Source: Pseudooceanicola nitratireducens (GTDB lineage Bacteria; Pseudomonadota; Alphaproteobacteria; Rhodobacterales; Rhodobacteraceae). From it: DNA of 64,000 nucleotides. Below are positions 10,719 to 29,435 of this stretch, piece after piece. The first letter of the stretch is position 1, and every line of letters begins with the position of its first letter. Made by a program: the position numbers and the translations under genes. Where the stretch lies: contig NZ_FNZG01000001.1 of NCBI RefSeq assembly GCF_900109195.1, positions 992,001 to 1,056,000 of the forward strand, written 5' to 3'. The notes beneath the pieces are model-generated. The model had not been told where the DNA came from. It did no database searches and saw only the letters and a list, made by a program, of their open reading frames with translations.

Positions 10719-10735
10719 ATGGCAGCCCGTAGGGG
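10719..10735. repeat. att core, left end of island
   Basis: ATGGCAGCCCGTAGGGG is identical to 29419-29435. It duplicates the last 16 nt of tRNA-Glu (T-stem 3' side, acceptor and CCA) without the rest of the tRNA, as expected at the distal end of a tRNA-integrated element. Confidence 0.9.
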
Positions 10736-10776
10736 GCTACCAGAAAACCAGGTTCGGTGAACAAAATAAGGGCAAG

Positions 10777-10788
10777 GGTGTCCCACGG
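10777..10788 (+). repeat. Candidate integrase arm site L1
   Basis: GGTGTCCCACGG, 41 nt inside the left att core. The same 12-mer recurs at 10832-10843 and 29345-29356, and with one mismatch in reverse at 29365-29376. The symmetric distance to both cores suggests integrase or excisionase arm-type sites. Confidence 0.6.
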
Positions 10789-10831
10789 AGGCATGAAGTT
10801 GGGGACATGGAGATCAATGGGTTAGCAGGTA

Positions 10832-10843
10832 GGTGTCCCACGG
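10832..10843 (+). repeat. Candidate integrase arm site L2
   Basis: Second left copy of GGTGTCCCACGG, same orientation as L1, start-to-start spacing 55 nt. Confidence 0.6.
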
Positions 10844-11191
10844 TTGTATGGAGTCAGGAAGCCACATCAGGTGCCGGGCTCATGCGCTCATCCGTCCGAT
10901 CTCTTTTGATCGCTGACGCGCTGTATCCTGCGATCAGCGCCGCCAGGCGCTATTGCCATAATTATCGCTTTTGCAACCCTGTGCCGTTCTTCATACCTGC
11001 TCGTGTTTATTTCATTTCTTCGTTGTCGGCTGCGCGAAGGCAGTGCGCCGAAGATTTTTGCAGCGGCGGTGATTTTCGGTCCCGTGTGTACTCTCCGGTG
11101 GATAGTGGAGTTGCCCGACTTTTGTGGAGAGCGATTATTTCACATCACGTGCCTTTCGCTCGAAGGCGGAAGGGCTCATGAAGTCGAGCGA
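10844..11191. other. Stretch with no recognisable gene
   Basis: Both strands were read; short frames here have no family resemblance or good ribosome sites. It lies between the left arm sites and the IS3 fragment and may be the outer end of the degraded IS. Confidence 0.4.
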
Positions 11192-11356
11192 TTAATGGCG
11201 TTTGAAGGGCTTGTAGAATCCGCCGATGTATCTGGCGATGGCGTTTTCCACCTGCTTACGTGATTGCCAGGTGACTGGCCAAATCAGTTCCGATTTGATA
11301 GTCTTGAAGAGCGTCTCGACCAGCGAGTTATCATAGCAGTTCCCGCGACCGCTCAT
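11192..11356 (-). pseudogene. IS3-family transposase fragment (C-terminal end)
   Basis: Minus-strand translation gives MSGRGNCYDNSLVETLFKTI, continuing KSEL..W and ending FYKPFKRH with a TAA at 11192-11194. This is the conserved end of the IS3 OrfB integrase core, including the catalytic Glu of the DDE triad (VETLF). An in-frame TGA lies immediately before the Met, so only about 54 residues survive and the rest of the element is gone. Confidence 0.8.
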
Positions 11357-11490
11357 TCAGATCAGGATGTTCCGTCCACGGACCGATATTCTGGGTATGT
11401 CGATCACGCTGCGTGCTTACCAAAACGACGAGACTGCGGCCCTCTTAAAGGCGCTTCGAGATAGCCGCCGTCCTGCGCTTGTCAAAAGCT

Positions 11491-14337
11491 TTATAGGTCC
11501 AGGAGGCTCTCCTGCGACTTGAGACGCTCAGCCAGGCTGTGCGCAACCTTCTCGCTCTCCGCGTAGGCCTCCGCAGCCCGGGCATGATCACCGGTCGCTT
11601 CAGCGGCGCGGCCCACGTTTTTTAGCGATACCGAAAGGTCGCGCAGACTCGTCGGCGTATTCAGGTGCTCCGCGAGATCGCGCGCGAGCTCCAGGCTCTC
11701 CGCGTAGGCTTCAGTGGCGGCTGCTTGATCCCCGCCGGCCTCCGCCGCGCGGCCCACGTTACCGAGTGACACCAAAAGGTCGCGCAGGCTTTCCGGCGTC
11801 CTCAGATGCTCTACCAGATTACGCGAGATTTCCACGCTCTGCGCGTGAGCCCCGGCGGCGAAGGCATGATCCCCAGCGAACTGCGCCGCACGGCCTACGT
11901 TGTCGAGCGACACCGACAAGTCACGCAGACTCGCTGGCGTCTTCAGGCGCTCCGCCAGGTCGCGCGCGATTTCCAGCATCTCGATGAAGGCCGCGGCGGC
12001 GGCGGCATGATCCCCGGAGATCTGCGCCGCGCGGCCCACGTTACCGAGCGAAACCGAAAGGTCGCGCAGGCTTTCCGGTGTCTTCAGGTTCTCCACCAGA
12101 TCGCGTCGCAACTCCATGCTCTCCCCATAGGCCGCAGCGGCGGCGGCATGTTGCCCAGCGATCTGCGCCGCGCTGCCCACGTGGTCCAGCGACACTGACA
12201 AGATACGCAGGCTCTCCGGCGTCTTCAGGCGCTCCGCCAGGTCGCGCGCGACCTCCAGCATTTCGACGGAGGCCGCAGCGGCGGCGGCATCATCCCCGGT
12301 GACCTTCGCCGCGCTGCCCACGTTGTTAAGCGACACTAACAGGTCGCGCAGGCTCTCCGGTGTCTTCAAGTTCTCCACCAGATCGCGCCGCACCTCCAAG
12401 CTCTCCCTGTAGGCTTCGGTGGCGGCGGCATGAGCCCCAGTGAGCTGCATTGTGCGGCCCATGATGTCCAGCGACACCGACATCTCGCGCAGGCTTTCCG
12501 GCGTCTTTAGGCGCTCCGCCTGTTGGCGTTGCCTCACGAGCAAAGGGCCGGAAATCTCGAGAGCTTCGGCTATTTTGCCATCATTTTGCAGTAGCCTCGC
12601 AACATTATTAAGCAGCCAACTCTCGACTTTATTCGCCACAGCAGGTTCGCGGTAATAAAGTGAAAAGAACTTATCAGCAGCCTCCAATGCCGACTCGTGG
12701 CAGTAGCGTTCGGCCTCTGCCCGCGCCACGTGCGCCAGTGCGAGCAAGACGTAAAAACGCTCCTCGAGATCTTCTTCAGAAAAAATCTGTGCCGCGAGGC
12801 TATATGTGAGAATCTGTTCCTCAATTCCTGAGGCCAGGTCGCCATTCTCGAGCCGAGTGCGGAGAAGCGCTTTTAGGGATGTCCTAAGGGCAACCTCATC
12901 GCCCAGAGTTTTCAGCGATCGACGTCGACGCTCGGCCACCATATAGAACAGACGCTCGGAGAACTCCGCTATCTTCTCCCGTCGCCGGGACGACACGATG
13001 CTGTATGGGTTGACTGCTTTCGCAAGCGCCTCTCCACGCGTTTCGCCCAGATGCAATCGAGCGAGCTCATCGATCGTTTCGGAAACGAAGCGAACTCCTT
13101 GCAAGCTCGCAAGGCAGATTGCTTCCTGGACATCTTGGGGAGCGTCTCGCAAGCGACGCATGACAACCTTGAAGATGTCATGGGTCTCCTTAAGCGCCTC
13201 GGCGAAACCTTCTTCAGTCAGCGCGGCTTTCGTGTCGAAGTCGTTGAAGAAGTCTTCGTTCTCCCGCAGAAACGCGATGATCTGCTCGAGGTGTCGTGGA
13301 TTGCCACCGGCGTGATTCAACAGGGCCGACGCTTGGTCCGGCAAAAGCCCGGGAAAGGCCTCAACAAGGGCGCCAGTCAGATCAGGCACGATCGGCAGGT
13401 CGATCTCCAGAGTATTGCTGGTTTTCAAGAATCCGCCGGGCAAGCCCGCTGCGGGCCCATTGTCTAAGGGTGTGCCGTCGCGGCCATGTTTCAAGATGCC
13501 CGCAAAGCAACGCTCGGACTTTATGAATTCCGGGGCGAGATCGCGCTTCCAGTGCGTGACAAGGATCAGTACCGGCCAGGACTGGGTCATGGCGGAATGA
13601 AGCAAGCGCTCCGTGAAAACCGATAGGCCCGGATCGTCCTTCGAGAACTGTGCATCGTCAATCAATATTACGCCTGCCGTCTTCGCGTAGGTGTAGCACC
13701 GTGGATTGAAGATGCTCTCAAGGTCTTCCAACACCGCGTCGACCCGGCTCATCGACCGTTGGCCTGCTTGCTCGCGGGCGATGTTGGCGGGCGAACCGAG
13801 GGTTCCTCGCAGAATGCCTACAGTCTTCAGCAGGCCTTCCCCGACAGAAATCACTGTGTCGTAGCCACTCCAACTGGCGGCCTCGCTTTTGGCCACGTCC
13901 CGCCAAACATTCACGATGGACTTACTGGAACTCCTCATCCTTGCACGCATTGTCAGGGCAACCAGATGTGGGGCGAGGAAGTTATCATAGGTGGCAATTG
14001 CATCACCGGCTATACTGTTCTCGGCGCCTTTGTCCGATGCCCTTAGGCCCCACCAAAGGTACGGAATCGGCACATTATAACGGCAGCTATCAGGATCAGG
14101 ATTCACGTCCATACTGCGGTCAAGAAGCGAGACTGCGTGAGGCCAATATCCCTCGCGTCCAACTCCATCGATAGTCTCGCTTAGCCAGCGGTAAAACTCC
14201 AGGGCCAGCCGGGTCTTTCCCACGCCACGTTCCGCCTTCAGTATTACAAGCTGTGGTTCCGGTGCCTCGACCTTGCTCGCACGCTGCCAGCGCTCAACAA
14301 TCTGCGCCATCTCTACGGCGCGACCACAAAACTGCAT
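11491..14337 (-). CDS. AAA ATPase with C-terminal 47-residue helical repeats
   Basis: 948 residues. The N-terminal AAA-type NTPase has Walker A AERGVGKTRLA (35-45) and Walker B VILIDDAQF (223-231). A middle helical region follows. From about residue 610 to the end there are at least seven tandem 47-residue repeats plus a partial one, with consensus RDLxExLKTPESLRDLSVSL and then xNVGRAAxxxGDxAAAAxAY, a TPR-like helix pair. The DNA copies keep an exact 141-bp period (282 bp between two near-identical stretches at 11941 and 12223). This layout resembles STAND-type sensors of island defence genes, but no effector domain is recognised. Function unknown. An upstream GAGGATGG fits as ribosome site. 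Confidence 0.85.
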   Translation of the reverse strand: MQFCGRAVEMAQIVERWQRASKVEAPEPQLVILKAERGVGKTRLALEFYRWLSETIDGVGREGYWPHAVSLLDRSMDVNPDPDSCRYNVPIPYLWWGLRASDKGAENSIAGDAIATYDNFLAPHLVALTMRARMRSSSKSIVNVWRDVAKSEAASWSGYDTVISVGEGLLKTVGILRGTLGSPANIAREQAGQRSMSRVDAVLEDLESIFNPRCYTYAKTAGVILIDDAQFSKDDPGLSVFTERLLHSAMTQSWPVLILVTHWKRDLAPEFIKSERCFAGILKHGRDGTPLDNGPAAGLPGGFLKTSNTLEIDLPIVPDLTGALVEAFPGLLPDQASALLNHAGGNPRHLEQIIAFLRENEDFFNDFDTKAALTEEGFAEALKETHDIFKVVMRRLRDAPQDVQEAICLASLQGVRFVSETIDELARLHLGETRGEALAKAVNPYSIVSSRRREKIAEFSERLFYMVAERRRRSLKTLGDEVALRTSLKALLRTRLENGDLASGIEEQILTYSLAAQIFSEEDLEERFYVLLALAHVARAEAERYCHESALEAADKFFSLYYREPAVANKVESWLLNNVARLLQNDGKIAEALEISGPLLVRQRQQAERLKTPESLREMSVSLDIMGRTMQLTGAHAAATEAYRESLEVRRDLVENLKTPESLRDLLVSLNNVGSAAKVTGDDAAAAAASVEMLEVARDLAERLKTPESLRILSVSLDHVGSAAQIAGQHAAAAAAYGESMELRRDLVENLKTPESLRDLSVSLGNVGRAAQISGDHAAAAAAFIEMLEIARDLAERLKTPASLRDLSVSLDNVGRAAQFAGDHAFAAGAHAQSVEISRNLVEHLRTPESLRDLLVSLGNVGRAAEAGGDQAAATEAYAESLELARDLAEHLNTPTSLRDLSVSLKNVGRAAEATGDHARAAEAYAESEKVAHSLAERLKSQESLLDL

Positions 14338-14741: not shown

Positions 14742-14866
14742 TTCCTGTAAACAGACCTATTGCATTAGCCCGATGAAACGGAACATGGAACGCGGTCGGG
14801 ATTCCAAAATGACTTCGGCCCCGGCGACATTTATTGTCGTGTAAGGCGTTGGAATGGAGAGTGGCT

Positions 14867-16003
14867 CTATGCCGCTGTCTCTTCGGTTGCCGCGATCTCC
14901 ATCGCCTCTATCAGCGCGTGACCAACCGCTTTGCCGAGGAGCGGTGGAACTGCATTGCCGACTTGGACATATTGATCAGTTTTAGAACCGGAAAAGACAA
15001 AACTGTCGGGAAAAGACTGTAGACGGGCAGCCTCGCGGACAGAAATTGCGCGGTTCTGTTCTGGATGGATGTATGCGCCCCAATGGATATCGCACTTGGT
15101 GAGGACCGTGCAGGAGAGCCCGTCCCAAGTCATCCGTCCATAGCGCTTCGTGTGATCGGATCGCTTCGCCCGCTTCATCCCCGCCGGCAGCAAGTCGAAC
15201 GGGATATCGCGCCAACTCCCCCCAGGGGGAATGTGCTCGAGCCGATCCATATTCACTTGGCCCAGGCGCGGCGCAGAATGGTTCTCCACGGTCGTCCGAT
15301 TTCCGCGGACTAAGATCTGGAAATCTCCTTTGGGCTCGGACGCATACTCCATAAGGCCGCAGTCTTCTCCGTTCTTCAGTGTAGGAAGGTCGCCAATGGC
15401 GTCCTTGATCGTCACATATGGCTTCAAGCCTGGCCCATGTGTCGGCTCCGGATGAATGATCGGCGCACCAACACGATTGCCGATGATGACGACTCGCCGG
15501 CGCTCCTGCGGTACGCCGTATTCCTCGGCGCGCAGGACCTGCTCTTGGACCTTGTAGCCAAGCTTTGCGAACTCGTCCTTGATTGCTTGGAGTGCCTCGC
15601 CACCACCGGCAGAGAAGATCCCCGTGACGTTCTCCATAACCACGAACTTCGGGTGCATCTCTTTCACGACCCGAAGGTACTCCCGAAAAAGCTGGGAGCG
15701 CTCATCGTGCATTCCGCGTTGATGATTGTAGACTGAGTAGGCTTGGCACGGGGGGCCGCCGGCCAGGACGTCCAACTCTCCCTTCTGTAGGCCAGTCGCC
15801 GCTTTCAGATTTTTCGCCGTCAGGTCTTGGATCGGACCAGGGATGAAGGTGGCTCCGGTATGTGACTTTTCGAAGGTTTCTCCAGCGGCATCGAAGCAGT
15901 CGTTTCCGGCCAGAACACGGAAATTGGCCATCTCGAGACCGGCGGTCAACCCACCAGCACCGCAGAAGAGGTCCACAACTGTCGGTTTCCACTGCTCGCC
16001 CAT
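14867..16003 (-). CDS. DNA (cytosine-5) methyltransferase
   Basis: 378 residues with the ordered C5-methyltransferase motifs: I DLFCGAGGLTAGLE (11-24, S-adenosylmethionine site), IV GGPPCQAYS (82-90, catalytic Cys 86), VI MENVTGIF (about 123-130), VIII QERRRVVIIG, and the C-terminal IX/X region with QVGNAVPPLLGKAVG. The target-recognition region lies between about 220 and 330. It is 79 nt downstream of the NotI-like endonuclease gene in the same orientation, so it is almost certainly the protective methylase of that system. The recognition sequence cannot be deduced. Confidence 0.93.
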   Translation of the reverse strand: MGEQWKPTVVDLFCGAGGLTAGLEMANFRVLAGNDCFDAAGETFEKSHTGATFIPGPIQDLTAKNLKAATGLQKGELDVLAGGPPCQAYSVYNHQRGMHDERSQLFREYLRVVKEMHPKFVVMENVTGIFSAGGGEALQAIKDEFAKLGYKVQEQVLRAEEYGVPQERRRVVIIGNRVGAPIIHPEPTHGPGLKPYVTIKDAIGDLPTLKNGEDCGLMEYASEPKGDFQILVRGNRTTVENHSAPRLGQVNMDRLEHIPPGGSWRDIPFDLLPAGMKRAKRSDHTKRYGRMTWDGLSCTVLTKCDIHWGAYIHPEQNRAISVREAARLQSFPDSFVFSGSKTDQYVQVGNAVPPLLGKAVGHALIEAMEIAATEETAA

Positions 16004-16082: not shown

Positions 16083-17135
16083 TTACGGACCAGCGATCAT
16101 TTTGTCTTCGATCGAAGCCTCAAAGTCTCCCTTTGCGACGGGGATCCCGCCCGTCAAACCTTCGATTGAGTGTTCCAGTGTCGTCAGGCGGCGGTCGACC
16201 ACCTGGAGCGCGAACGCGGCCCCAGGCGTAGGCTGGACGAAGTCCACAATATACCAGACAATGTCGCAATTCGACACATCGGGGACCTCGCGCATCTTAC
16301 CCATCGACTCGAAGAAGGCGATGTCGACAACGACAGCCATTTTCTTTCCCCAACGACGCAAAGTCGGCACTTTGATCTGCAATTGGGGCATAAAACGCTT
16401 GGGGCCGCTTGATCGGTAATCCGGTCGACGGCCTTCCTTTGGCATCGAGAGACGCCCACCGTCGTTCGCGATCGCGGTGAGCTCCTTGCCCATCTCCTTT
16501 CCAGAGAAATAGACAGCCTGGACTTCGACGGCAGCCCACTGCATTGGATGTCCTTGAGGCGTGTTCGTGGCCGCCAGAACCATGTCGATGTTCCCGACGC
16601 TCTGTCCGGGGTCACTGTCAAGGTTGCCGGTCGATTCCAGAAAACCAACCTCGCCGACTTGGAACGGGTTCGGATCGCCAAGGAGATCCTGACCAATGTG
16701 TTGAACTACAGTGTTGTCCTCTTGATACCGCACGGGGCACATGCCGCGGATGTAGGCTCGCTTGCCCGTGACCGGCTGGATCCCGCCGCCAGGCTTCTCT
16801 TGGTAGAGACGCATTGAGCAGACGCCGCCCTTTTTGTTGCAGAATGGGAAAGGGGCATCTGTGCGGAACGGACAGATCATTTGCGTTGACTGCAAAGATG
16901 CGAGGCGGGCCTCGAGATCTGCTAACCGTTTCTGCTCCGTGGGTGTCAGAGGACCCGCCTTGACCTTTTCCCGAAGGTCAACGATGCGCTGCATTTCTTT
17001 CTTATCCAGCATCTTGCCAGATGCTTTGAATTTTCCGAGGCGGAGGCGATCCCCATCCGAGAGATCGAGAAACGGCATTCCATACCATTCGGCGATATGG
17101 AACATTTCTTTTTCCTTGGATTTCTTTTTCGCCAT
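16083..17135 (-). CDS. NotI-like type II restriction endonuclease
   Basis: 350 residues from the ATG at 17135 (AGGGGAA ribosome site); the open frame extends further but without one. Four cysteines in short motifs (ICPF C88, PFCNKKGGVC C99 and C106, GMCPVR C133) resemble the iron-binding Cys4 site of NotI. D184 in NIDMVL and E204-x-Q206 in AAVEVQAVYFSG match the variant PD-(D/E)xQ nuclease centre of NotI. It is paired with the C5-methyltransferase downstream. The family cuts rare 8-bp GC-rich sites; whether this one recognises GCGGCCGC is not known. Such sites do occur in the chromosomal flanks (for example 10010-10017 and 40817-40824). Confidence 0.85.
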   Translation of the reverse strand: MAKKKSKEKEMFHIAEWYGMPFLDLSDGDRLRLGKFKASGKMLDKKEMQRIVDLREKVKAGPLTPTEQKRLADLEARLASLQSTQMICPFRTDAPFPFCNKKGGVCSMRLYQEKPGGGIQPVTGKRAYIRGMCPVRYQEDNTVVQHIGQDLLGDPNPFQVGEVGFLESTGNLDSDPGQSVGNIDMVLAATNTPQGHPMQWAAVEVQAVYFSGKEMGKELTAIANDGGRLSMPKEGRRPDYRSSGPKRFMPQLQIKVPTLRRWGKKMAVVVDIAFFESMGKMREVPDVSNCDIVWYIVDFVQPTPGAAFALQVVDRRLTTLEHSIEGLTGGIPVAKGDFEASIEDKMIAGP

Positions 17136-17537: not shown

Positions 17538-17816
17538 CTACCGAAATTTGCGCTGCACGCATGCGTCTGGCTTGCCAAGAGTTTCTTCGACGGCGGACAG
17601 ATGCCAAGGCTCGATGTGCATGAGCAGGTACTGTCGCAATGTCTCCGTGTCTGCGTCCGAATTCTCGGTAACAATTCGCTCAATCGCTCCGCCGAGAACG
17701 CAGAGGCGGTGGGTCCGTTGGGCTCGATTTTCTGCTCTGGCAGCCATTTCGAGGCGCGCTATCCGATCACGATACCGTTGGTATGACTGCGACCTTGACA
17801 CATGATACTTTTTCAT
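17538..17816 (-). CDS. TraD-like small mobilization protein
   Basis: 92 residues from the ATG at 17816, chosen for the GGAGG site 8 nt upstream (an ATG at 17831 is in the same frame without one). The core RAQRTHRLCVLGGAIERIV resembles the R-x-R-x-LIxLGGLVEKA core of the TraD/MobC accessory proteins, and the N-terminal half is basic and coiled. It is divergent from the relaxase gene, as traC-traD are from traA in Agrobacterium-type plasmids. It likely helps assemble the relaxosome at the intervening oriT. Confidence 0.6.
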   Translation of the reverse strand: MKKYHVSRSQSYQRYRDRIARLEMAARAENRAQRTHRLCVLGGAIERIVTENSDADTETLRQYLLMHIEPWHLSAVEETLGKPDACVQRKFR

Positions 17817-18053
17817 TGTTCCAACCTCCATTCAGGACTTTTCCTGAAAAGGAAATCGGGCCCCGTTCCGAGAACCGCGTCGGTAGACGTTTAGCTTTTG
17901 CTGGATCGCCATAACGGCATGAGACAGCTTGCCGTTAGGCGACCTGCAACAACGATAATGTCGTTTTGCATCCTTGCGCCCCTTCCTTGAATTTTGCTCC
18001 CGCGTCAGCGGTACCTATTTCCAACTCGATAAAAACGGGGTCGGGGTGAGAGC
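17817..18053. other. Candidate oriT between TraD-like and relaxase genes
   Basis: This 237-nt divergent spacer holds two inverted repeats: AACGGCA (17913-17919) / TGCCGTT (17930-17936), extended by outer arms TCGCC (17906-17910) / GGCGA (17938-17942), and AACGA (17951-17955) / TCGTT (17961-17965). Position between a relaxase and a TraD-like gene is the usual oriT location. The nick site cannot be assigned. Confidence 0.5.
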
Positions 18054-19289
18054 ATGACTTTGACCGTCTCACATACAGAGAGACACAGCGCCAGCTGGGC
18101 ACGTTTCAAAGTTGTGCAAAGGAGCAAGGGGCAGTCAGCCGTCGCGCGCGCGGCGTACCACCTCGGCGCCAAACTCCACGATCCTCGCACTGGCAAGACG
18201 CACAATTACACCAAGCGCCATGGCATCGAATTGGTAGGCGTTTTTGGCTGGCGAAACCGCGACCCACAAGACCTCTGGCAAGCTGCGGAAGAGCGCGAAA
18301 AGCGTAAGAAAAACGGTGCCTGGATCGCAAATGCGCAGACTGCGCGCGAGATGACCATTGCGCTTCCCGTCGAACTCGCAAGAGAAGACCTCCACCGTAT
18401 TCTCCGAGGCTACGCTCTCTGGCTCGTTGAGCGCTACGGCGTCGCGGTCCAAGTAGTCGTTCACGATCCGCCAAGAGACGGCTCAAAAAACTTACACTGC
18501 CATATCCTGATGACAACTCGGCGCGTGGAACCAGATGCGCCGCAGGGACTGGGTAGGAAGGCCCGGGAATTGGACGATCGTTCAGCGCAAGAAGACATAT
18601 CGGGGCACAAATCCAAGTCCCGTGGCTCTTCTGAGATAATGGCGATGCGTGAGGAGTGGGAAGACCGCATGAACCGTGCGCTGGACAAAGCCGGATCGTC
18701 GCGAGGTCGGGTCGACCTGTGCAGTCACAAAGTGCGCTATGAAAAAGGTCAAGGCGCGCCGAAAATGCCAGCCCGCCATCTCGGTCCGGCGCGTGCTGCT
18801 GCCGCCCGCAAAATACTGGAACTGAACGCTTCATTCGAAGCAGCTGGCATTGCCAAAGAACCCGAACCAAACTGGCTGAAAGAGGCTCGCGCCGACGCAG
18901 AATTGAACGCTGAGTTAGATAATCTTTATCGCTCACTTTTGTGGGAAGCGCGTAGAACGCACGGCTCCGATGAAGAGGTGCCGTTGGTTCTGATGGCGAA
19001 CATTGGTCTGGTCTTGCTCGGAATCGCAAGAGCAATCTGGGGGGCCGATTTCGGTCGCGATCCGATCGATCCGGCCTCTCGAAAAAATCCACAAAGACCA
19101 AATATAAGATACGGTGGCGGTGAGGATGACCGCGCCGATTCCAGCAGGCAGGATGTTGCACAGGGCTTCGACATGCCGCTGGATCTTGAACACCAAAGCG
19201 CTGCGTTGCCACAAACTCCAGAGCCCCCGCGGGTCTCTCCGAAGAAAGTCTGGCGCCGCGCCCCAGACCGTCAACGCACAGGACACTGA
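18054..19289 (+). CDS. mobA: MobA/MobL-family relaxase
   Basis: 411 residues. The MobA/MobL nuclease domain occupies about 1-270: SKGQSAVARAAYHLGAKL near 24-41 (the family N-terminal motif) and VVHDPPRDGSKNLHCHIL near 140-157, the His cluster for metal binding. The catalytic residue is expected in the N-terminal part. It nicks oriT and pilots the strand during conjugal transfer. No helicase domain follows; instead there is a short tail with one hydrophobic helix (VPLVLMANIGLVLLGIARAI). Length is shorter than TraA-type relaxases. With no mating-pair genes in the island, transfer would depend on a co-resident conjugative system. Confidence 0.87.
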   Translation: MTLTVSHTERHSASWARFKVVQRSKGQSAVARAAYHLGAKLHDPRTGKTHNYTKRHGIELVGVFGWRNRDPQDLWQAAEEREKRKKNGAWIANAQTAREMTIALPVELAREDLHRILRGYALWLVERYGVAVQVVVHDPPRDGSKNLHCHILMTTRRVEPDAPQGLGRKARELDDRSAQEDISGHKSKSRGSSEIMAMREEWEDRMNRALDKAGSSRGRVDLCSHKVRYEKGQGAPKMPARHLGPARAAAARKILELNASFEAAGIAKEPEPNWLKEARADAELNAELDNLYRSLLWEARRTHGSDEEVPLVLMANIGLVLLGIARAIWGADFGRDPIDPASRKNPQRPNIRYGGGEDDRADSSRQDVAQGFDMPLDLEHQSAALPQTPEPPRVSPKKVWRRAPDRQRTGH

Positions 19290-19837: not shown

Positions 19838-21484
19838 TTACTTGGCGCCTTGGCGCAATGCACGGGCTTTGATCTCGCGCGTATCACAGATCATCTTTGC
19901 ACGCGCTACGCTTTCGCCTTCATAACAAAGCTTAATGACACTCATTGGCGCATTCTGCAGTTTCTTGAAATCTCGTACTGCATAGAGGCGTATCTGGTTG
20001 CCCTTAGGTCCGATGCGGGGCTTGCCCAGATCGCCTCCACCAATACGCTCTTTTCCAAGGAATGCCGCTATAGACTGGACTGATGTCTGACGCGGTGCTC
20101 CTGCATCTTGTGCAATCTTCAGTGCTTCACGCGTGTTGATGATATCCCTGTCGAAGGGAGCCGATTGAGAATGCCAAGCATCCTCAAGCCACGCTTCGAC
20201 GCCATTTTGCGTCGCATTGCGTACCGTGTCTTTGTGCTCTGTGTGAGGAGCAGGTGCATGCGGATTGAACGTTGAAAGGTCTCTGGTATGCAACGCGTGC
20301 GCGAAAGCAGCGATCTCTTTGCCCCAAATCTTTGAGTAAAAGTCGTCGAAATAGGCTGGTGACTTCGGTTGCTGGCGGCAGATTATTACAAAATATCTGC
20401 GGTCTTGGTCTTCAACGTACGCTGCGTTCTCGTAGTTCGAATACATCATGAAGTTCGCATGGTTTGGCACGCGGTAAGGCTTCACATTCTTCTCGTTGAT
20501 CCGGATGATCTCTTGGGTAATGAGGGGCTTCAACTTGTTCGCCACCTCGCGGCGCTCGCCGCACATAATCTCAGGCACTACCACAAGAGACGAGCTCTTC
20601 ATGAAGTCGAACCGACCGTCGCTTAGGGCATCGTCCGGCAAGAAGTATGCATTGTCGTATCCGAGAACTCTTGCAAGCGCGATTCCGAGGGTGTCTTTGC
20701 CGACACCCTGAGCGGGCGAAATGATAAGGGGCGAGTGGTTGATTTTCGCTCCAGGGTTTTGAGCCGCGAATGCCATCCAGTCGAGAAGATGCTCTGCGTG
20801 CTCTGTCACGCCATTGCACAGATACAAAATGTGGTCAGTCATCCAACTTGCATCTCCATCTTTTGGAGCAATGTCAGGTTTGGTGTAGGTGTTCAGCCAC
20901 TTTACGCCGTCGACCTCGACAATCTCTCCATCGTCTTTCGGAAGGAAGCGTTCATTGTGAACGCGATGCGCGGTAGGGTCTTCGCGAAGCATCTTGAAAG
21001 CGTCGAGGCGTTCTCCTTTTTCTGATTTCGCGTCGATAGGCATGATGTGTGCCTCAGAGTTCGAGAGCGCCTTGGTTGAGATCCAATCTTTCGCACGGCG
21101 ATCCCAAATTTCATCCCTAAACGCCGCATAGACGTAGCGCTTGCGCAGATAATCAACGACATTGAATGCCTTCCGATTCTCGTTCGCCTCTATCTTGTCG
21201 AGGCCGAGCTCAGAAGCTTGAGCGGCTTCCCGTTCAAAGTTTGCGAGGATCCACCAAACGTGTGCAGGCTCAATAGACGGCACTGCCGCGAGGAACGACC
21301 GTGCCGCAGCTATATCCGGATCATCTCCTCCTCCGTCGCCGTCAGAATTTTCGTCGTCGGTGCCTTCGACAATCGCCAAGACAGCAGAGCTTTTCACACC
21401 AGCGCCCTTCGTGCGCACGGCGGCGATGACCTCTTTCGAGAGGGCGGAGGGGCGGCGGCTTAGAGCCGGAAGAGATTTTTTCAT
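19838..21484 (-). CDS. Primase-helicase type replication protein (DUF5906-like)
   Basis: 548 residues from the ATG at 21484, which has AGGTAGGA upstream; an in-frame ATG at 21517 is the alternative. The C-terminal half is a superfamily 3-like helicase as in NrS-1-type primase-polymerases: Walker A SPAQGVGKDTLG, Walker B SLVVVPEIM, and sensor region PNHANFMMYSNYENAAYVEDQDRRYF. The N-terminal part (about 40-90) is acidic and low-complexity (DDENSDGDGGGDDPD). It likely unwinds or initiates replication of the excised island. It transcribes away from an AT-rich, repeat-bearing region that is a candidate origin. Confidence 0.78.
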   Translation of the reverse strand: MKKSLPALSRRPSALSKEVIAAVRTKGAGVKSSAVLAIVEGTDDENSDGDGGGDDPDIAAARSFLAAVPSIEPAHVWWILANFEREAAQASELGLDKIEANENRKAFNVVDYLRKRYVYAAFRDEIWDRRAKDWISTKALSNSEAHIMPIDAKSEKGERLDAFKMLREDPTAHRVHNERFLPKDDGEIVEVDGVKWLNTYTKPDIAPKDGDASWMTDHILYLCNGVTEHAEHLLDWMAFAAQNPGAKINHSPLIISPAQGVGKDTLGIALARVLGYDNAYFLPDDALSDGRFDFMKSSSLVVVPEIMCGERREVANKLKPLITQEIIRINEKNVKPYRVPNHANFMMYSNYENAAYVEDQDRRYFVIICRQQPKSPAYFDDFYSKIWGKEIAAFAHALHTRDLSTFNPHAPAPHTEHKDTVRNATQNGVEAWLEDAWHSQSAPFDRDIINTREALKIAQDAGAPRQTSVQSIAAFLGKERIGGGDLGKPRIGPKGNQIRLYAVRDFKKLQNAPMSVIKLCYEGESVARAKMICDTREIKARALRQGAK

Positions 21485-22082
21485 TTGGTTTTTCCTACCT
21501 GTGTCTTTCTCCGCCATGGTCACCCCCGGGGGATCAATCCCAGGGGTATGTGACACAGGTGAAGAGCAGCGTTTGTCGCTACAGGAAGAATATAAGTCTC
21601 TTCGAAAGGCGTGGCTTAACGGGACTTGAAAGAAAAATTGAAAAAAATACTTAAGGCTATGTAATATAACAAAAAAAATATATTGACAGGGTTTTCCTCC
21701 GGGGTCGGCTTGGTACAGAAGCATGAAGTGAGCTCTCCATCTGTCCCGACGGCAAAGAGGTCCAACAGTTTGTTTTCAAGGAGAAAAATATCGTCTCGGG
21801 CTGTGGGACAGATGGGGCGGAGGAATCTGTCACACACCATAGCGATCTCATACATAGTTTACGTATGCCCGACTAAAGATGTCTCTCACGTGGAAGTATT
21901 GTATTTTATCTGTCTCGTCTGTCCCAATGCAGGAAAAGAGATTTTAAAACAGTAGGATGCCCTGGGACAGTTGACGAGCCAGCCTTTGTCTCGGAATGGC
22001 TCACCTGTCCCAGCAGCAAAATCTCCTTCGTCACCCAACAAAACGGCCAATCTTAGCGTCGCAACAAATACAGAGGCGACCG
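21485..22082. other. AT-rich region with CTGTCCCA repeats, candidate replication origin
   Basis: The spacer between the divergent primase-helicase and small-gene operon contains CTGTCCCG at 21741-21748 and CTGTCCCA at 21804-21811 (reverse), 21919-21926, 21963-21970 (reverse) and 22005-22012. The last two face each other. The stretch 21640-21900 is the most AT-rich in the window. Iteron-like repeats beside a replication gene and AT-rich DNA are typical of an origin; they could also be operators of the two flanking promoters. Confidence 0.5.
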
Positions 22083-22295
22083 ATGATTGATTTTCCTCAA
22101 CAGCTCATTGTTACATGCGAGAATGTACACGGTGAACAAATATCTATGCCCGTCCCTCCAATTATCGCAGTTCGCTGGCTGCTTAATGGATGGCATATAA
22201 ACCCTCCAAAAGGTCAACAATGGCGAGAGAGAGATCTCCACGAACTCGAAGAAAATGCGCGCTTGCTCTGCATACTTGCTGGAGATGACGCATGA
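22083..22295 (+). CDS. Small hypothetical protein A of a two-gene operon
   Basis: 70 residues from the ATG at 22083 (GAGGCGA upstream). The sequence (MIDFPQQLIVTCENVHGEQI, later WRERDLHELEENARLLCIL) is unlike any family I can name. Its stop overlaps the start of the next gene by 4 nt (ATGA at 22292), which argues that both are real and coupled. It lies just downstream of the CTGTCCCA repeats. Confidence 0.55.
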   Translation: MIDFPQQLIVTCENVHGEQISMPVPPIIAVRWLLNGWHINPPKGQQWRERDLHELEENARLLCILAGDDA

Positions 22296-22606
22296 ATCCG
22301 ACCGACGCTTTCGATGTTGCCGCATGGCTAAGTGTCAGATTTCCTGACATCACCGCGATCGAGTTCTTTTCGAACGGGCGGGCGCTGGCTGGTCTTGTCT
22401 GGATTCACCCTCTCGAAGCCACCGACGAAGCGATTGCAGCCGTCCATCAGGTTGTCCTCGCTCTCGGCTATGTCGTCGAACCCGCCGCTGAATACCAAGA
22501 CGAAATCCGAGCTACAGCTGTCGGCATGTGCGCTCACCGCCGCGCCGTCGGCATCTCCCGTATTGACGATGCTCTGGATGTCTATTCTCCCGGTAGTGCC
22601 CCGTAA
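22292..22606 (+). CDS. Small hypothetical protein B of a two-gene operon
   Basis: 104 residues, starting within the stop of the preceding gene. It has an alternating hydrophobic pattern (AIEFFSNGRALAGLVWIHPL) consistent with a small alpha/beta fold; no family recognised. Probably an accessory gene of the island's replication or maintenance module by position only. Confidence 0.5.
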   Translation: MNPTDAFDVAAWLSVRFPDITAIEFFSNGRALAGLVWIHPLEATDEAIAAVHQVVLALGYVVEPAAEYQDEIRATAVGMCAHRRAVGISRIDDALDVYSPGSAP

Positions 22607-23279
22607 AAAATAGGTGATGTCCGCAAACCGTGTTGATCTGCTATGCGGACTTTGCCGCCGTTCGCATCGCGTGCTTACTCATATTCTCAATTGCGCAGTC
22701 ATTCGACGGAATGGGCGTAGAGCATGCGTTATTGGGCTGACCCTGCTCAGAGATCGAGCTCCCGATAGGATCACAACGATGCTGTGAGAAAGGGAGAAAG
22801 AGCATGGAATACTTCGTTGGTTTGGATGTGTCGCTTCGGTCCTGTGCGCTTTGCATTGTGGATGTCTTCTGCGCCAATTGAAGCGCGCCGGAAAGCGGGG
22901 CTCTCCTCTACCAATCCGACACCAGCATGCAACGGCGCCCGTAGAACGCCACACCAGAAGCGAAGAGAAGCGTGACCCGGATAAGCGATCCTTGCAGAGA
23001 ATGAAAGGAAACGAGCTTGACCCAGAAGGCCAATTAGAGAAGTGGACATTCGCTGCGGTCGCCATCAACGACCGCATAGCCCGTGACGTCTACGGGGCCT
23101 GAAGTCGAGTCTCGCCGACGTACGGTCCTCCGGAATGGTGCTGCACCGGTCGCCGCCACAATAAATTTCGCAAAGCGGCGCAACCATTGCTCTCGCTGAC
23201 CGACAATATGTTTGTAGGCGCTACGCGTCTCAGCACCCTGGCGATCACAGCGATCGCTACAAACACCAGGAGCACTACG
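22607..23279. other. Gene-poor stretch with transposase debris
   Basis: 673 nt without an intact gene. It contains the IS110 fragment (22804-22881). A frame ending at 23102 (LDPEGQLEKWTFAAVAINDR) looks coding-like but has no recognisable family. The end of the stretch holds the promoter and AGGAG site of the GHKL ATPase gene. Confidence 0.5.
22804..22881 (+). pseudogene. IS110-family transposase fragment (N-terminal end)
   Basis: Translation begins MEYFVGLDVSLRSCALCIVD, the conserved start of IS110/IS1111 DEDD transposases including the first catalytic Asp, then breaks after about 20 residues and stops at TGA 22879-22881. A GGGAGAAAGAGC ribosome site is kept. Only the first 5% of the transposase remains. 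Confidence 0.8.
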
Positions 23280-25163
23280 ATGAACGACAAAACCAAACAC
23301 ATCGACGTCGAAGACGACTTCCAGTTCGAGCCGCAATGGGGCGATCACGCACCCCGGGGCGGCAAGTCGGTCCTTAACCGCGTTCTGAAAGAAGGTACCA
23401 AAGTTCCGCTCTTTCTCGGGCAAACCTTCATCAATTCGCTGCGGGACGTTGGGTACAACACCACCACCTCGGCGCTCTGCGAGCACGTGGACAACTCCAT
23501 CCAGGCTGGCGCGACCGAGGTCCGCGTCTACTTCCATCAAACCGGTCAGCGCGGCGCCTATTCGATCGACGGGCTGGTCCTGGACAACGGACGCGGGATG
23601 GAACCGCACGTCCTGCAGGTCGCGATGTCCTTCGGCGGGTCTATGTATTACGATAACCGGCAGGGCATCGGTCGCTTTGGCGTGGGCATGAAGACGGCGG
23701 CCCTGAGTATGTCCCCGGCCGTGGAACTGTACTCGTGGACCGAGCCGGGGGCGATCTACACGATGACCCTGGACGTCAATGACATCAGTTCCAAGATGTC
23801 AAATCTCCTGGAGTTGCCCGAGCCACAGTTGCTGGATGCCCTGCCGTCGAGCGTGGCCCGCATCCTAACGAAACCGATGGTTTATCCCCGTCTTCATGCC
23901 GATCAGGACTTGTTCGCGGATGACGAGGACGAGCTTCTGGATCGCATGGGTGGGTCCGGCACCATCGTCCACATACCGGATTGCGATCGTGTGACCTATA
24001 AGAAGGCTCAGACGTTGGCTGAGGATGCCATCCGGGAAATGTCCCGCATTTACCGGGTTCAACTGAGCCAAGGCCTTCGCCTGTTTGTTAACAACCGGCG
24101 CGTCCACGCGTTCGATCCAACCTACTGGGACCTGAACGCTCGTCACACCCGTGTGGAAGGGATCAAGGAAAAGCGCAGCAAACTGATCAAGTCCTGGCCC
24201 GAAATCCATGTGCCCGTGAGCGAGAACAGCGATCGGACTGCACCTGTGGCGGTGAGGCTTTACATGCTTCCGATCGAGGAATGGTACGACCTGCCGCGGA
24301 AGATTCTAAAGAACGATCTCCACGTGTTCGACGGCCACACGGTGTCATTCATGCGAAACGACCGCGAGGTGTTCAGCGGAACTGTAAGGGAGTTGGCTGG
24401 CGCCGGCCACGGAGACAACGACTGGCTTCGCCTCCAGATCGATTTCGGTGGTGAATTGGACGAGGCATTTGGCGTAGCGATGAACAAGCAGGGCGTGCGG
24501 CCCAAGAAGTTTGCGCTCGACTACATCCGAGAGCAAATCCGCGAAGAGGTCACGCGGGTACGAAACCGCACCGCTCAGTTCCGAAAAGAGCGACGTGCGT
24601 TGGACTCCGGAAACAAGGTGAGTGACGCGGAACGACGTGCCGGTGAGGCGGATGCTATGCAGGCGAAGCCTCTGCCGAGTCCTGCGCCGACTACTCCGGA
24701 GGAAGCTGCGGAATTGGATGCTAACCTGCGCGGACTGGCGGTTTCCCTGAAGCGCAAGGACGAAACCAACGACGAAGCGTTCGAGCGGATCAAGAATTCG
24801 AAGTTCATCACGACGTTTAAGCACGATGAATACTGGCCATTCTACCACGTGGATTACCAGTTCGGTAAAGTGGTGCTGACGATCAACACTGCCCATCCAT
24901 TCTTTTCGAAACTGTACGATCCGATCGCACAGTTGACAGTCAACGCTGGGAGCGACATCGACGGCAATACCGGTCCTGACGATGATGGCGCCGCCGACGA
25001 GACATCCGATGTTCTGGTGGCTTTGCAGATGCTTTTGTTCAGCCTCGGACGGACGCAGAGCCAGATGAGCCTGGAGGGCGATAACCCCGAACGCACCAAG
25101 CTGTTCGAGGACCTCAGGCGCGAATGGTCGGAGACGCTCAAGACCCAGCTAACGACCCTTTAA
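23280..25163 (+). CDS. GHKL (MORC/Hsp90-like) ATPase of unknown function
   Basis: 627 residues from the ATG at 23280 (AGGAG 8 nt upstream). The GHKL Bergerat fold is explicit: N box EHVDNSIQAG (68-77), G1 box DNGRGM (102-107) and G2 box GIGRFGVGMKTA (129-140). After the ATPase and transducer-like regions there is a charged helical linker (about 420-500) and a C-terminal domain ending in a Leu-rich segment (LQMLLFSLGRTQSQM). There is no histidine-kinase phosphoacceptor or MutL endonuclease motif. The architecture is nearest to MORC-like HATPase_c_3 proteins, several of which sit in bacterial defence loci. It has its own terminator. Role in defence is inferred from island context only. Confidence 0.8.
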   Translation: MNDKTKHIDVEDDFQFEPQWGDHAPRGGKSVLNRVLKEGTKVPLFLGQTFINSLRDVGYNTTTSALCEHVDNSIQAGATEVRVYFHQTGQRGAYSIDGLVLDNGRGMEPHVLQVAMSFGGSMYYDNRQGIGRFGVGMKTAALSMSPAVELYSWTEPGAIYTMTLDVNDISSKMSNLLELPEPQLLDALPSSVARILTKPMVYPRLHADQDLFADDEDELLDRMGGSGTIVHIPDCDRVTYKKAQTLAEDAIREMSRIYRVQLSQGLRLFVNNRRVHAFDPTYWDLNARHTRVEGIKEKRSKLIKSWPEIHVPVSENSDRTAPVAVRLYMLPIEEWYDLPRKILKNDLHVFDGHTVSFMRNDREVFSGTVRELAGAGHGDNDWLRLQIDFGGELDEAFGVAMNKQGVRPKKFALDYIREQIREEVTRVRNRTAQFRKERRALDSGNKVSDAERRAGEADAMQAKPLPSPAPTTPEEAAELDANLRGLAVSLKRKDETNDEAFERIKNSKFITTFKHDEYWPFYHVDYQFGKVVLTINTAHPFFSKLYDPIAQLTVNAGSDIDGNTGPDDDGAADETSDVLVALQMLLFSLGRTQSQMSLEGDNPERTKLFEDLRREWSETLKTQLTTL

Positions 25164-25170
25164 AATCATC

Positions 25171-25377: not shown

Positions 25378-25824
25378 ATGGATGCAGATCCGTGGGTGGA
25401 GTATGCCCGCCTTCAGTCGATGCTTAAGGGCACGACCGACGCATATAAGGCTGCCGGAATCGAAGCGGCAATGACAGACCTGCTCGACAGTATCGCGAAG
25501 CGCCGTACAATCGATGCGAGGCAGGTCAAGAACCTCGTCGTGAACCGCATCGGGAAGGAGCGTCGTCGCCGCGCTATCGTCTACGCGCATAGCCACGACA
25601 TCGCAGGTGAACATGAAGGTCGAGGCGTCGCAGACGCCGCGGAGAGCCGCATTATGCTGCAAAGGTATGCGAAGGCGTGCGGCCCCCGGGACTTCCACCT
25701 GCTGGTTCGCCAGGCCCAAGGCAACACGTTGGCGGAGATCTCCGCCGAAACTGGGTCTCCGATCACAACCCTGAAGGCACGCGCGCACCGCGCGCGAAAG
25801 AAGGTGCTCGCCCTCGCTGCCTGA
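25378..25824 (+). CDS. Sigma-region-4-like / HTH protein
   Basis: 148 residues from the ATG at 25378 (GGAG 8 nt upstream). The C-terminal part GNTLAEISAETGSPITTLKA, then RAHRARKKVLAL, is a typical sigma-70 region 4 helix-turn-helix as in ECF sigma factors. The N-terminal half is helical and basic (VKNLVVNRIGKERRRRAIVY) but lacks a clear region 2 with its -10 binding motifs. It may be a truncated sigma factor or a small regulator using the same HTH. It follows the GHKL ATPase after a terminator and 174 nt, so it is a separate unit; linkage may be functional. Confidence 0.65.
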   Translation: MDADPWVEYARLQSMLKGTTDAYKAAGIEAAMTDLLDSIAKRRTIDARQVKNLVVNRIGKERRRRAIVYAHSHDIAGEHEGRGVADAAESRIMLQRYAKACGPRDFHLLVRQAQGNTLAEISAETGSPITTLKARAHRARKKVLALAA

Positions 25825-26427: not shown

Positions 26428-27645
26428 TTATCGATATTTCCCGCCTTCTTGCTCGCAGTGCTCAATAACCCGGTAGAACCATCTATCGAACCAAACCCAT
26501 GTTCCATTGTAGTCGCCTTGGCAACCGTATCCCTTCGCAGGGTTTTTGCCGTCCAGTGACTGCCAGAGTTCTATGTGGTCTTGCATACGGAAGTTGGGAA
26601 AACCCGCCGCCTGCACCTTTGCGACGACTTTTCCCGGTGGATACCGAGTTTTGTTCACCTCTTTGAGTATGATTTTCTCTATTTCGTCTGCCTCGTCGCT
26701 ACCCGTTGCCACAATAGAGACCGCTGCATCAGCAGCGCCGGGCTTTTTCGCGGTCATGGGCACGAAACCGTAGGACATCCGGTACGCTGGGTCTTTCAGT
26801 TGCTCTTCTGTCAGCCCTTGCTCGAACGCATCGATTGTAGTTTCAATGCTTTTCGGCAGGCCCGATGCCTTCTTCAGTGCTGAGATCTGCTCCGTTTCGA
26901 AAGACACGAACTGAAGTGCAATCGGTAGTCTCTTTTCCAGCCCATATTGAAGTCCGAACTCCTTCTTCAGAAGGTCGTTGAAGTTCAATGCGCAGGACTG
27001 GAGTTTGGCGCCGAGGGCATCGTCGATACGGCTCGTGGTCCGGTGTTCGATCTCATGTCGGATCTCGATGAGAAACTCCAGGTTCTTGGCAACACCACCT
27101 TTCGCCGGGCATTTTCCTTGCTTCAAGCAGTGCCCGAGATCCCAATACTTGTCCTCGCCGGCCTTCGTCGTTTGTCCTGTGTACGTATAATCAATGCCCT
27201 CGCGCTTGAACCAGGCATGCATGAGGTAAGTCCATGCGATGATTGCGGTGACGATGAAAAGCTCTGCTCGGAACGTGAGGCCCGCGCCGTTGAAGGTCTG
27301 AACTGCCGCTATCATAGCTTCACGAGCCTTGATCAACAGTTCATCTCCCCGAACGCTCAAGCCGGTTTCATGATCGATGTCTGGCCATATCGAAAGAAAT
27401 GTGTCGAGATCGGTTTCAGGCGCAGTTTTGATAGCCTTGTGTTTCGTCTCGGTCCGGATTTCAGCGATCAGCCGATGGTTCACGGAGCGCGTCGGTCGTG
27501 TGAAGTATGCCAAGATATCCTGGTCGTTTGAGAAATTACCGCCGCGGGCTATCATTGCCTTAACGATCGCAATCTCCCAGGTTTCAAGCGTGTTACCTCG
27601 CCGGCGTTTTTTCTTCTTCGGTTGTTCTTCTTCGTGATCCGGCAT
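26428..27645 (-). CDS. DUF3644 protein with HEPN-type RxxxxH motif
   Basis: 405 residues. After a basic leader (KKKKRRRG, 10-17) comes a helical segment (about 30-66: NDQDILAYFTRPTRSVNHRL) often seen at the N-terminus of accessory-island proteins. Residues about 98-235 match DUF3644, with LLIKAREAMIAAVQTFNGAG and FLIEIRHEIEHRTT. R196-x4-H201 (RHEIEH) is the RNase-type motif of HEPN domains; its catalytic use here is inferred. A C-terminal domain (about 320-405) ends with an aromatic-rich stretch (TWVWFDRWFYRVIEHCEQ). It is a candidate abortive-infection or toxin-type gene. A TCTCATGAGA palindrome lies 28 nt before the start. Confidence 0.7.
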   Translation of the reverse strand: MPDHEEEQPKKKKRRRGNTLETWEIAIVKAMIARGGNFSNDQDILAYFTRPTRSVNHRLIAEIRTETKHKAIKTAPETDLDTFLSIWPDIDHETGLSVRGDELLIKAREAMIAAVQTFNGAGLTFRAELFIVTAIIAWTYLMHAWFKREGIDYTYTGQTTKAGEDKYWDLGHCLKQGKCPAKGGVAKNLEFLIEIRHEIEHRTTSRIDDALGAKLQSCALNFNDLLKKEFGLQYGLEKRLPIALQFVSFETEQISALKKASGLPKSIETTIDAFEQGLTEEQLKDPAYRMSYGFVPMTAKKPGAADAAVSIVATGSDEADEIEKIILKEVNKTRYPPGKVVAKVQAAGFPNFRMQDHIELWQSLDGKNPAKGYGCQGDYNGTWVWFDRWFYRVIEHCEQEGGKYR

Positions 27646-27980
27646 GAGGCACCTCCATGAGAATTGGTAACTGTCTCATGAGAAAGGGCAAAGACCATTT
27701 TCTCGCCGGGACGCACATGACGCCTGCGACCAACTCACCCACGATCGGCAGGCCGATTAAGTAAAACAATGAACCGCAAAATCTTTCCTGAGAAAGATTG
27801 GGCTCTATACATTTCAATGGCTTAGGTGTTTTCCATTGAGCGGATGAGATTCTCACCCACATTTTGAGAGACAGAAACAGCCCTGGCGGTTGACCGTGCT
27901 CCATCGAGATATCGAACCTAAAATTCAGATCCGTCCGTTTGATCAGAGTCGAACCGATCTCCTCGGAAAGGAGATCTGAC
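27646..27980. promoter_or_regulatory. Divergent regulatory region with repeated TCTCA/TGAGA palindromes
   Basis: Between the DUF3644 gene and the integrase operon lie TCTCATGAGA (27674-27683), the 20-bp inverted repeat AATCTTTC-CTGA-GAAAGATT (27780-27799) and TGAGATTCTCA (27845-27855). All contain TGAGA half-sites in both orientations. This looks like a multi-site operator for one regulator shared by the two divergent units. Confidence 0.5.
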
Positions 27981-28181
27981 ATGCCCGCACCAAGAATAAC
28001 TGCCGCAGCTGCACGACAAGCGCTCGAAGGCGCTATTGCCGCTGGGCTCACGCCGACCGCCGCCGTGTGGCTCGCGGATGGAAGCTACCGACTTGAATTC
28101 AGCTCACAGGAATTGAAACCTGGACAGGATGTCGCCGCGAACGACGCGGGCAAGCCGAAAAAATGGGGCGAAAAATCGTGA
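27981..28181 (+). CDS. Small conserved protein upstream of integrase
   Basis: 66 residues from ATG 27981 with a strong AAGGAG site. The sequence MPAPRITAAAARQALEGAIA resembles short proteins that precede integrases in alphaproteobacterial prophages and islands. Its 3' end overlaps the integrase start by 19 nt, so they are cotranscribed and probably coupled. An excisionase-like role is possible, but no HTH is evident. Confidence 0.65.
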   Translation: MPAPRITAAAARQALEGAIAAGLTPTAAVWLADGSYRLEFSSQELKPGQDVAANDAGKPKKWGEKS

Positions 28182-29386
28182 AACACGACTACCCAGGACT
28201 TCTCAAAGACAAAACGCCAGCCGGATCGATCCGTTGGCGCGTCCGAAAAGATGGCGACAAGAAGCACCGAACCACAATACCGGTCGGGCCAGGCGAACCC
28301 ATGTTTCAAGAGTACTATGACGCCGCGCGCCTGGGCCGCGCGCTTGAAATTGAGGCCCCGAAAAAATCGAAAACAGGCTCTCTGGACAACCTCAGTGAAC
28401 GGTTTATCGACTGGATGCAAGACCGCGTAATGTCTGGAAACCTTTCGAAATTGACGCTTTCAAGTCGCACAACGGGTCTGAACCAGGCATGTGACACGCT
28501 TGACCCTGATGGCGACAGAATGGGAACCCTCAGCGCGGACCTGCCGATCGAGGCCTTTCAACACATCGTCGATGGTTTTGGTGTCAAGACGGGCGCCGCG
28601 GACACATGTCTAAAAGCATTAAGGGCAGCATATACATGGGGAAAAACAAGGGGTTTTCCTAAGCATAGCGCCGTTTTCGAGGCCAAGTCAGGGCACAAAA
28701 GTAAAGGTGGAGCATTGCAATGGGATGCCAATGATATCGGGAAATATCTTTCTACGCACGGCCCGGGAAGCATGGCCAGGCTTTGGTTTTGTCTCGCATA
28801 TGACAGTCACGGTCGGATCGGAGACATGCACCGACTCGGTCGGGAGAATGAAGTTATGCATGGAGATGATCGGTATCTTGAGTGGCAGCCGTCGAAAAAA
28901 GGCTCCGCGTTTGTATCGATTCCCTTCGGAGAGATGCTTGCTGCCGAGCTTGAGCATCATGACGAGCGCGACACGTATCTTGTGACCGAAGCCGGAGCAC
29001 CGTTCGCGTCATCCGGCGCACTCGACAACAAAGTCAGAAAATGGATCATTGAGGCCGGGCTTTGTGTCGATGCTACGGACGCCGATGGAGAACCGATTTA
29101 TGTCGGGAAGGGCAAGCGGAAGATCGTGAAAAAGGTCGCCACACGCTCTCAGCACGGGATCCGCAAAGGAGTTGCAGCGATGATGGCGAACAGCGGCGCA
29201 AGTGAATTCGAGATCATGGCGTCATTCGGGTGGACGGAGGCCAAGACCGCAGCGATCTACACTAAAAAATTCGCACGCCGTGGTTCAGCTGCGTCGGCCT
29301 CGAAGAGGATGGCTTCGGCCGCCGAGGCATGCAAATCCACAAAAGGTGTCCCACGGCCTGTCCCGCGTGGGACACCTTCGGACTGA
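28163..29386 (+). CDS. int: Tyrosine-type site-specific integrase of the island
   Basis: 407 residues. The C-terminal catalytic domain shows the first Arg in YDSHGRIGDMHRL, the box II pattern RSQHGIRKGVAAMM (HxxR), GW in place of the usual GH, and the nucleophile Tyr in AAIYTKKFARRG. The N-terminal region (about 1-70) would be the arm-binding domain and 80-180 the core-binding domain. The gene stops 32 nt from the att core in tRNA-Glu, the standard arrangement. Its last codons contain two inverted copies of the arm-like GGTGTCCCACGG sequence. Confidence 0.9.
   Translation: MGRKIVKHDYPGLLKDKTPAGSIRWRVRKDGDKKHRTTIPVGPGEPMFQEYYDAARLGRALEIEAPKKSKTGSLDNLSERFIDWMQDRVMSGNLSKLTLSSRTTGLNQACDTLDPDGDRMGTLSADLPIEAFQHIVDGFGVKTGAADTCLKALRAAYTWGKTRGFPKHSAVFEAKSGHKSKGGALQWDANDIGKYLSTHGPGSMARLWFCLAYDSHGRIGDMHRLGRENEVMHGDDRYLEWQPSKKGSAFVSIPFGEMLAAELEHHDERDTYLVTEAGAPFASSGALDNKVRKWIIEAGLCVDATDADGEPIYVGKGKRKIVKKVATRSQHGIRKGVAAMMANSGASEFEIMASFGWTEAKTAAIYTKKFARRGSAASASKRMASAAEACKSTKGVPRPVPRGTPSD
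29345..29376. repeat. Inverted pair of candidate integrase arm sites (right end)
   Basis: GGTGTCCCACGG (29345-29356) and, in reverse, GCGTGGGACACC (29365-29376). The inner copy ends 42 nt from the right core, matching the 41-nt distance at the left end and the same orientation relative to the core. The pair overlaps the 3' end of the integrase gene. Confidence 0.6.
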
Positions 29387-29418
29387 AGCGCCAGTAAAAC
29401 AAGGCCGGGAAAAACGCC

Positions 29419-29435
29419 ATGGCAGCCCGTAGGGG
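29419..29435. repeat. att core, right end of island in tRNA-Glu
   Basis: ATGGCAGCCCGTAGGGG, identical to 10719-10735. It rebuilds the 3' end of the tRNA so the target gene stays functional. Confidence 0.9.

Follow-up and report, generated by a model that had tools for sequence, protein, structure and literature searches.

A probable integrative mobilizable element with putative defence cargo at the tRNA-Glu gene beside recJ in Pseudooceanicola nitratireducens

We analysed a stretch of 64,000 nucleotides of Pseudooceanicola nitratireducens DNA (contig NZ_FNZG01000001.1, positions 992,001 to 1,056,000; the window) and conclude that positions 10719–29435 are very probably an integrative mobilizable element (IME), whose integrase lineage uses the tRNA-Glu gene beside recJ across genera of the family Rhodobacteraceae. 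The element would recombine with the help of arm sites at its ends, would be transferred by a MobQ-type relaxase with the aid of a helper, and appears to carry defence genes. Coordinates are those of the window, and G and L numbers are our handles for the genomes and loci compared.

The island is bounded by two identical copies of the 17-mer ATGGCAGCCCGTAGGGG, both read on the plus strand, at 10719..10735 (the far end) and 29419..29435 (the near end), exactly as a preliminary description made from the sequence alone had reported. Sixteen of the 17 bases are the 3′ end of an intact tRNA-Glu(ttc) gene on the minus strand (29420..29494). This 16-mer has exactly two copies in the 4.06 Mb genome, both at the claimed ends, and the next best match to the core repeat in the window has three mismatches. 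The island measures 18,717 bp with both repeats and 18,700 bp as a circle, and can be excised in silico to the base; its GC-content is 0.560, compared with 0.639 and 0.651 in the flanks. We did not see the segment shared as core DNA by relatives lacking the integrase: recJ was present in all 22 genomes of the genus, with tRNA-Glu behind it in each, and the NotI-type gene of the island was absent from the other 21.

The ends are further marked by the arm-like site GTGTCCCACG, of which the window holds four exact copies, all within ~125 bp of the core repeats. At the far end sites 1 (10778..10787) and 2 (10833..10842) are direct copies on the plus strand, 55 bp apart; at the near end an inverted pair, GTGTCCCACG-N10-CGTGGGACAC (29346..29375), lies beside the tRNA, within the 3′-terminal part of the integrase gene. 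When one mismatch is allowed, the window contains 6 occurrences of GTGTCCCACG, about as many as expected (5.7); the argument depends solely on the exact copies and on where they lie. A far core was recognisable in four elements, namely the island described here (G000) and elements of 11.3 kb (G055), 12.2 kb (G287), and 10.6 kb (G171) from three other genera. The far direct pair had a spacing of exactly 55 bp in all four and lay 56–58 bp from the start of the 16-mer; both copies were changed alike in G287 (GTGGACCACG twice), and the last base of each copy was altered in G171. This fixed layout in other genera supports the ends given here, and an 18.7 kb mobilizable element that can be delimited to the base, as first proposed, is still the best reading.

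The near inverted pair, with up to four mismatches in 20 allowed, was found at 14 of 17 places with a related integrase (see below) and also in G002; the rest of the 1.58 Mb of loci compared (overlaps counted) had none. In G044 it adjoins the tRNA, not the integrase. It was exact in 6 of these 15 elements, and both arms were changed alike in three (GTGGACCACG/CGTGGTCCAC in G417 and G289, and GTGCCCCACG/CGTGGGGCAC at the tRNA-Thr of G298). Among 365 family genomes, a pattern search that did not depend on the integrase found the exact 30-bp inverted pair in seven, adjoining tRNA-Glu in every one, and the reversed control gave none. The genomes are largely those of the integrase search, six being shared and the seventh being G351. 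In the latter (L159) the exact pair lies beside recJ-tRNA-Glu with no integrase relative in the 3 kb seen, and may represent a scar or a site whose integrase has diverged. Arm-site pairs at fixed spacing in four genera provide a handle by which this integrase lineage can be found and tested.

The integrase itself, a tyrosine recombinase (28163..29386, plus strand), ends 33 bp before the tRNA, and its position beside the repeat was correctly described before. Its Pfam match, at 25.6 bits, narrowly missed the cut-off of 27.1. It aligned full-length with four related integrases, with the R, HGIR, and Y motifs present and a W in place of the H of the others. A small gene upstream (27939..28181, plus strand), with 36–47% matches beside the integrases of relatives, encodes a possible excisionase. 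Relatives of the integrase (E ≤ 1e-60) occupied 17 places in 16 of 394 family genomes, our own included, and 14 of these places were at tRNA-Glu, most directly adjoining it. In G417 no tRNA was called, yet the 16-mer lies beside recJ; the remaining three places were at tRNA-Met (G399 and G289) and tRNA-Thr (G298, a second copy). Within the genus, G009 has a related integrase at the site, as does G002 (L046); in G002 the gene contains a stop codon, and one arm site is exact and the other diverged. Two loci, L106 (G044) and L107 (G391), have related integrases 2.7 and 6 kb from tRNA-Glu, which suggests stacked insertions at the site, and two others, L059 (G010) and L060 (G017), have a pair of tRNA-Glu genes ~19 kb apart behind recJ, as though duplicated tRNAs enclosed an element. 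No description of an IME at the recJ-tRNA-Glu site was found in the literature, as judged from search listings. From the layout, the integrase would bind its GTGTCCCACG arm sites at each end of the element, and recombination at the 17-bp core, within the tRNA 3′ terminus, would leave the tRNA whole.

For transfer, the island contains a MobA/MobL (MobQ-type) relaxase gene (18054..19289, plus strand; MobA_MobL E 1.1e-36). Its product matched the MobQ model with E 1.6e-43 and 148.8 bits, below the model cut-off of 200; a PADLOC match to DpdH was disregarded in view of the much stronger scores for MobA/MobL and MobQ. A primase-helicase gene of the DUF5906/VapE type (19838..21724, minus strand; DUF5906 E 9e-18) is also present, and both genes had been recognised in the preliminary description. 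The third gene named there, encoding a small TraD-like protein (17538..17831, minus strand), deserves that label by size and place only, since its DUF3847 match is below the cut-off (32.5 vs 40 bits). Twenty open reading frames (ORFs) were scanned with Pfam, 17 of them within the island, although some of these 17 are probably not genes. The scan found no mating-pair (type IV secretion system) family among the 17, in agreement with the earlier statement that such genes were missing. Outside the island, the genome has three places with VirB4-family matches, which could mark the source of a channel. A relaxase family was found in all four delimited elements, Mob_Pre in G055 and G171 and MobA/MobL in G287.

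The 222-bp gap between the relaxase gene and the divergent TraD-like gene folds more strongly than 200 of 200 shuffles (z −3.5), and, from its sequence, this gap 5′ of the relaxase likely holds oriT. The candidate (17945..17982, plus strand) consists of an inverted repeat, 17945–17955/17961–17970, followed by TTGCGCCCC at 17974; TAATTGCGCCCT is a nic-region core of Ti-type plasmids. After excision the relaxase would nick oriT in the gap before its own gene, and the nicked strand would leave the cell through the type IV secretion system of another element.

Several observations weigh against this reading, both as to the transfer genes and as to the ends. No relaxase relatives (E ≤ 1e-50) were found in 334 other genomes and primase relatives (E ≤ 1e-40) in only 4 of 393; thus the backbone does not travel as a single block. 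The window contains the motif TTGCGCCCY four times, against 2.9 expected, so that it is not rare; the relaxase gap of G009 has an exact TAATTGCGCCCT, but in the other orientation with respect to the relaxase, and the nic-like motif had no match in the relaxase gap of L099 and only distant matches in L132. The near arm pair was missing at three integrase places (G391, G377, and G399), and no arm pair was found in G009; nine of the 15 near pairs are imperfect, six of them with only one arm departing, and the far sites of G287 (GTGGACCACG) differ from its own near sites (GTGTCCCATG/CGTGGGACAC). The island also contains two transposase remnants, a C-terminal one which we take to be of IS3 type from its translation (11180..11350, minus strand) and one of IS110 (22712..23053, plus strand), with stops in its frames and plasmid matches annotated as IS110. 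Finally, the empty site was not found: the 35-mer of the joined flanks had no exact match in a genome contig collection from which very near genomes may be absent, and a search across genera that compared gene order past the far end gave two weak matches without synteny.

These last observations, together with gene-poor stretches near 10.7–11.5 and 22.6–23.3 kb, would fit an island that arrived as an IME and no longer excises or transfers. Against it, the integrase, NotI, primase, GHKL, and relaxase frames are all free of stops, the core copies are identical, and the four arm sites are exact. We consider a fixed island unlikely, while allowing it a real chance; this judgement concerns present activity and overlaps with that on the IME, which concerns what the element is. 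A P4-like phage satellite, instead of an element that takes advantage of conjugation, might be suggested by the DUF5906/VapE type of the primase-helicase, with its weak matches to P4 primase, and by the occurrence of a NotI-methylase pair and a 50% primase relative on a contig filed as viral. The MobQ-type relaxase, the lack of capsid and packaging families in the Pfam scan of the island's 17 ORFs (PHROGs was not run), and the relaxases of the three other delimited elements at the tRNA-Glu site make this very improbable. Least credible of all is a coincidental match at the far repeat, with the real boundary of the element at some other point, for example further left with the cyclase/FAA-hydrolase genes: the left-flank genes are not beside recJ-tRNA-Glu in other genomes of the genus, and G002 has DNA like window positions 1–1655 ~3 kb from its own tRNA-Glu, but the far core with its fixed-spacing arm pair recurs in three other genera and the window has no further core copy with two or fewer mismatches. 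Gene order past the far end was not kept in the genus genomes compared, and left-flank DNA was found elsewhere in the genus. When the whole island was compared with a plasmid collection, seven records matched with short pieces, none covering 80%.

The cargo of the IME includes a restriction-modification (R-M) system, consisting of a NotI-family endonuclease (16083..17135, minus strand; E 4.4e-91; 350 aa from the start that fits its relatives) and a neighbouring C5 cytosine DNA methyltransferase (14867..16003, minus strand; E 2.6e-69). The endonuclease matches a Salipiger manganoxidans protein at 67%, and D184, E204, Q206, and four Cys, presumably active-site and metal residues, are invariant in 12 of 12 aligned sequences. 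A single-sequence search found no PDB chain at E ≤ 1e-3, so recognition of GCGGCCGC cannot be assumed. In the "rare-cutter restriction system" first described, "rare-cutter" came from the family name only; the "several unstudied ATPase genes" proved to be one AAA ATPase, one GHKL ATPase, and the primase-helicase. The contig filed as viral (L145) contains the NotI-methylase pair (86% and 88%), the primase relative mentioned above, and a GmrSD-type gene, and is possibly not a virus but a mobile island. R-M genes were present in all four delimited elements. Those of G055 are type III, and those of G171 and G287 comprise a C5 methylase, an Eco29kI-type enzyme (in G171 just under the cut-off, 29.9 vs 30.8 bits), and Vsr. 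Because R-M systems of three kinds, with differing relaxases, occur in four of four members, this small sample suggests that the site and its integrase lineage ferry defence genes.

A DUF3644 protein (26428..27645, minus strand; E 7.9e-56) is a candidate defence gene product from its match to the PADLOC candidate family PDC-S19 (E 1.6e-100); in G207 a DUF3644 relative (65%) and a 64% primase relative lie ~4 kb from tRNA-Leu. The AAA ATPase (948 aa; 11491..14337, minus strand) has a C-terminal tetratricopeptide repeat (TPR) array, encoded by a 141-bp tandem DNA repeat at 11554–12517 with 6.8 copies and 73–80% match. Among the 109 relatives listed, lengths run from 547 to 1266 aa; repeat number may therefore vary, perhaps quickly, and STAND-type sensing is our guess for the role of the protein. 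Taken together, the NotI-type R-M, DUF3644, GHKL, and AAA-TPR genes would form a defence set against phages and rival elements, which would make loss of the island costly to the host. A small ORF (19377..19640, minus strand) and two small overlapping ORFs (21996..22606, plus strand) had no family in the Pfam scan.

The GHKL ATPase is MORC-like (627 aa; 23280..25163, plus strand; HATPase_c_3 E 6.4e-21), and behind its gene lies that of a small helix-turn-helix (HTH) protein (148 aa; 25378..25824, plus strand) with a weak, sub-cut-off match to sigma-70 region 4. Residues E69, D72, N73, D103, G107, G135, and G137 of the ATPase, in the numbering of a 628-residue construct with one extra codon at its start (subtract 1), are invariant in 77 sequences. 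The structure model made with these 77 sequences (pLDDT 84.0) matched the fold of MORC3, with the GHKL motifs and the transducer (S5) fold both present; a model made with 12 sequences (pLDDT 59.7) was dropped. The ATPase matches a Citreicella sp. SE45 protein at 97% over 86% of its length. At E ≤ 1e-150 its family was found in none of 393 other family genomes, and its history was traced in the wider genome contig collection. There all 29 testable relatives, which come from several phyla, had kept the GHKL-HTH pair. By raw count the pair was near Dnd or methylase genes at 7 of 34 loci, and phosphorothioation genes were its neighbours in four relatives; by crude clustering no neighbour besides the HTH gene was common to more than 4 of 33 loci. 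Literature searches found no description of the pair. We tentatively propose, as an idea with somewhat less than even chances, that it is an undescribed two-gene module against invaders, in which a MORC-like clamp closes on DNA and is steered or restrained by the small DNA-binding protein, beside a DNA mark made by neighbours (5-methylcytosine by the methylase here, phosphorothioation in the four relatives), and which moves, as a ~2.9 kb unit, between IMEs and defence islands in several phyla. If so, it would be a small, testable bacterial relative of the eukaryotic MORC silencers. In L119, from Azospirillum, Dnd genes lie on one side of the pair and Pbe genes on the other, and this locus is well suited to testing whether the pair is linked to phosphorothioation.

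Outside the island, the GC skew jumps to ~+0.2 at window positions 47001–49000, over and just after a RibD-like gene.

In comparison with known systems, residues 82–188 of a 658-aa ORF matched MzaB (E 8e-16), but the MzaB equivalog score was 57.5 bits versus 850 and assignment to the MZA system was rejected. The HEF_HK/Response_reg_2 pairs, in the parts of PMC8011034 consulted, are like the GHKL-HTH pair in joining a HATPase_c_3 protein to a small regulator-like gene near R-M genes; however, neither PF19191 nor PF19192 was matched by the GHKL or HTH protein at E ≤ 1. For the MORC and paraMORC proteins of R-M systems, the portion of PMC2292703 consulted gives a superfamily II helicase in ~70% of MORC neighbourhoods, and "sigma" has no occurrence in its main text. 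No such helicase was found among the island ORFs scanned with Pfam; the constant partner of the GHKL protein is the small HTH gene, whereas helicase and nuclease partners are not constant. The NotI-methylase pair resembles NotI-type R-M systems (PF12183) both in its NotI match and in the adjoining C5 methylase. Many papers in the part of the IME literature consulted concern streptococcal or SGI1-type elements, unlike the tRNA-Glu island. The island is like the IME class, as far as it is described in the consulted parts of PMC5704250 and PMC7563843, in having its own integrase, attachment repeats, and a relaxase with no mating-pair genes. We regard it as ordinary in kind, a further IME of a known class with one possibly new cargo module.

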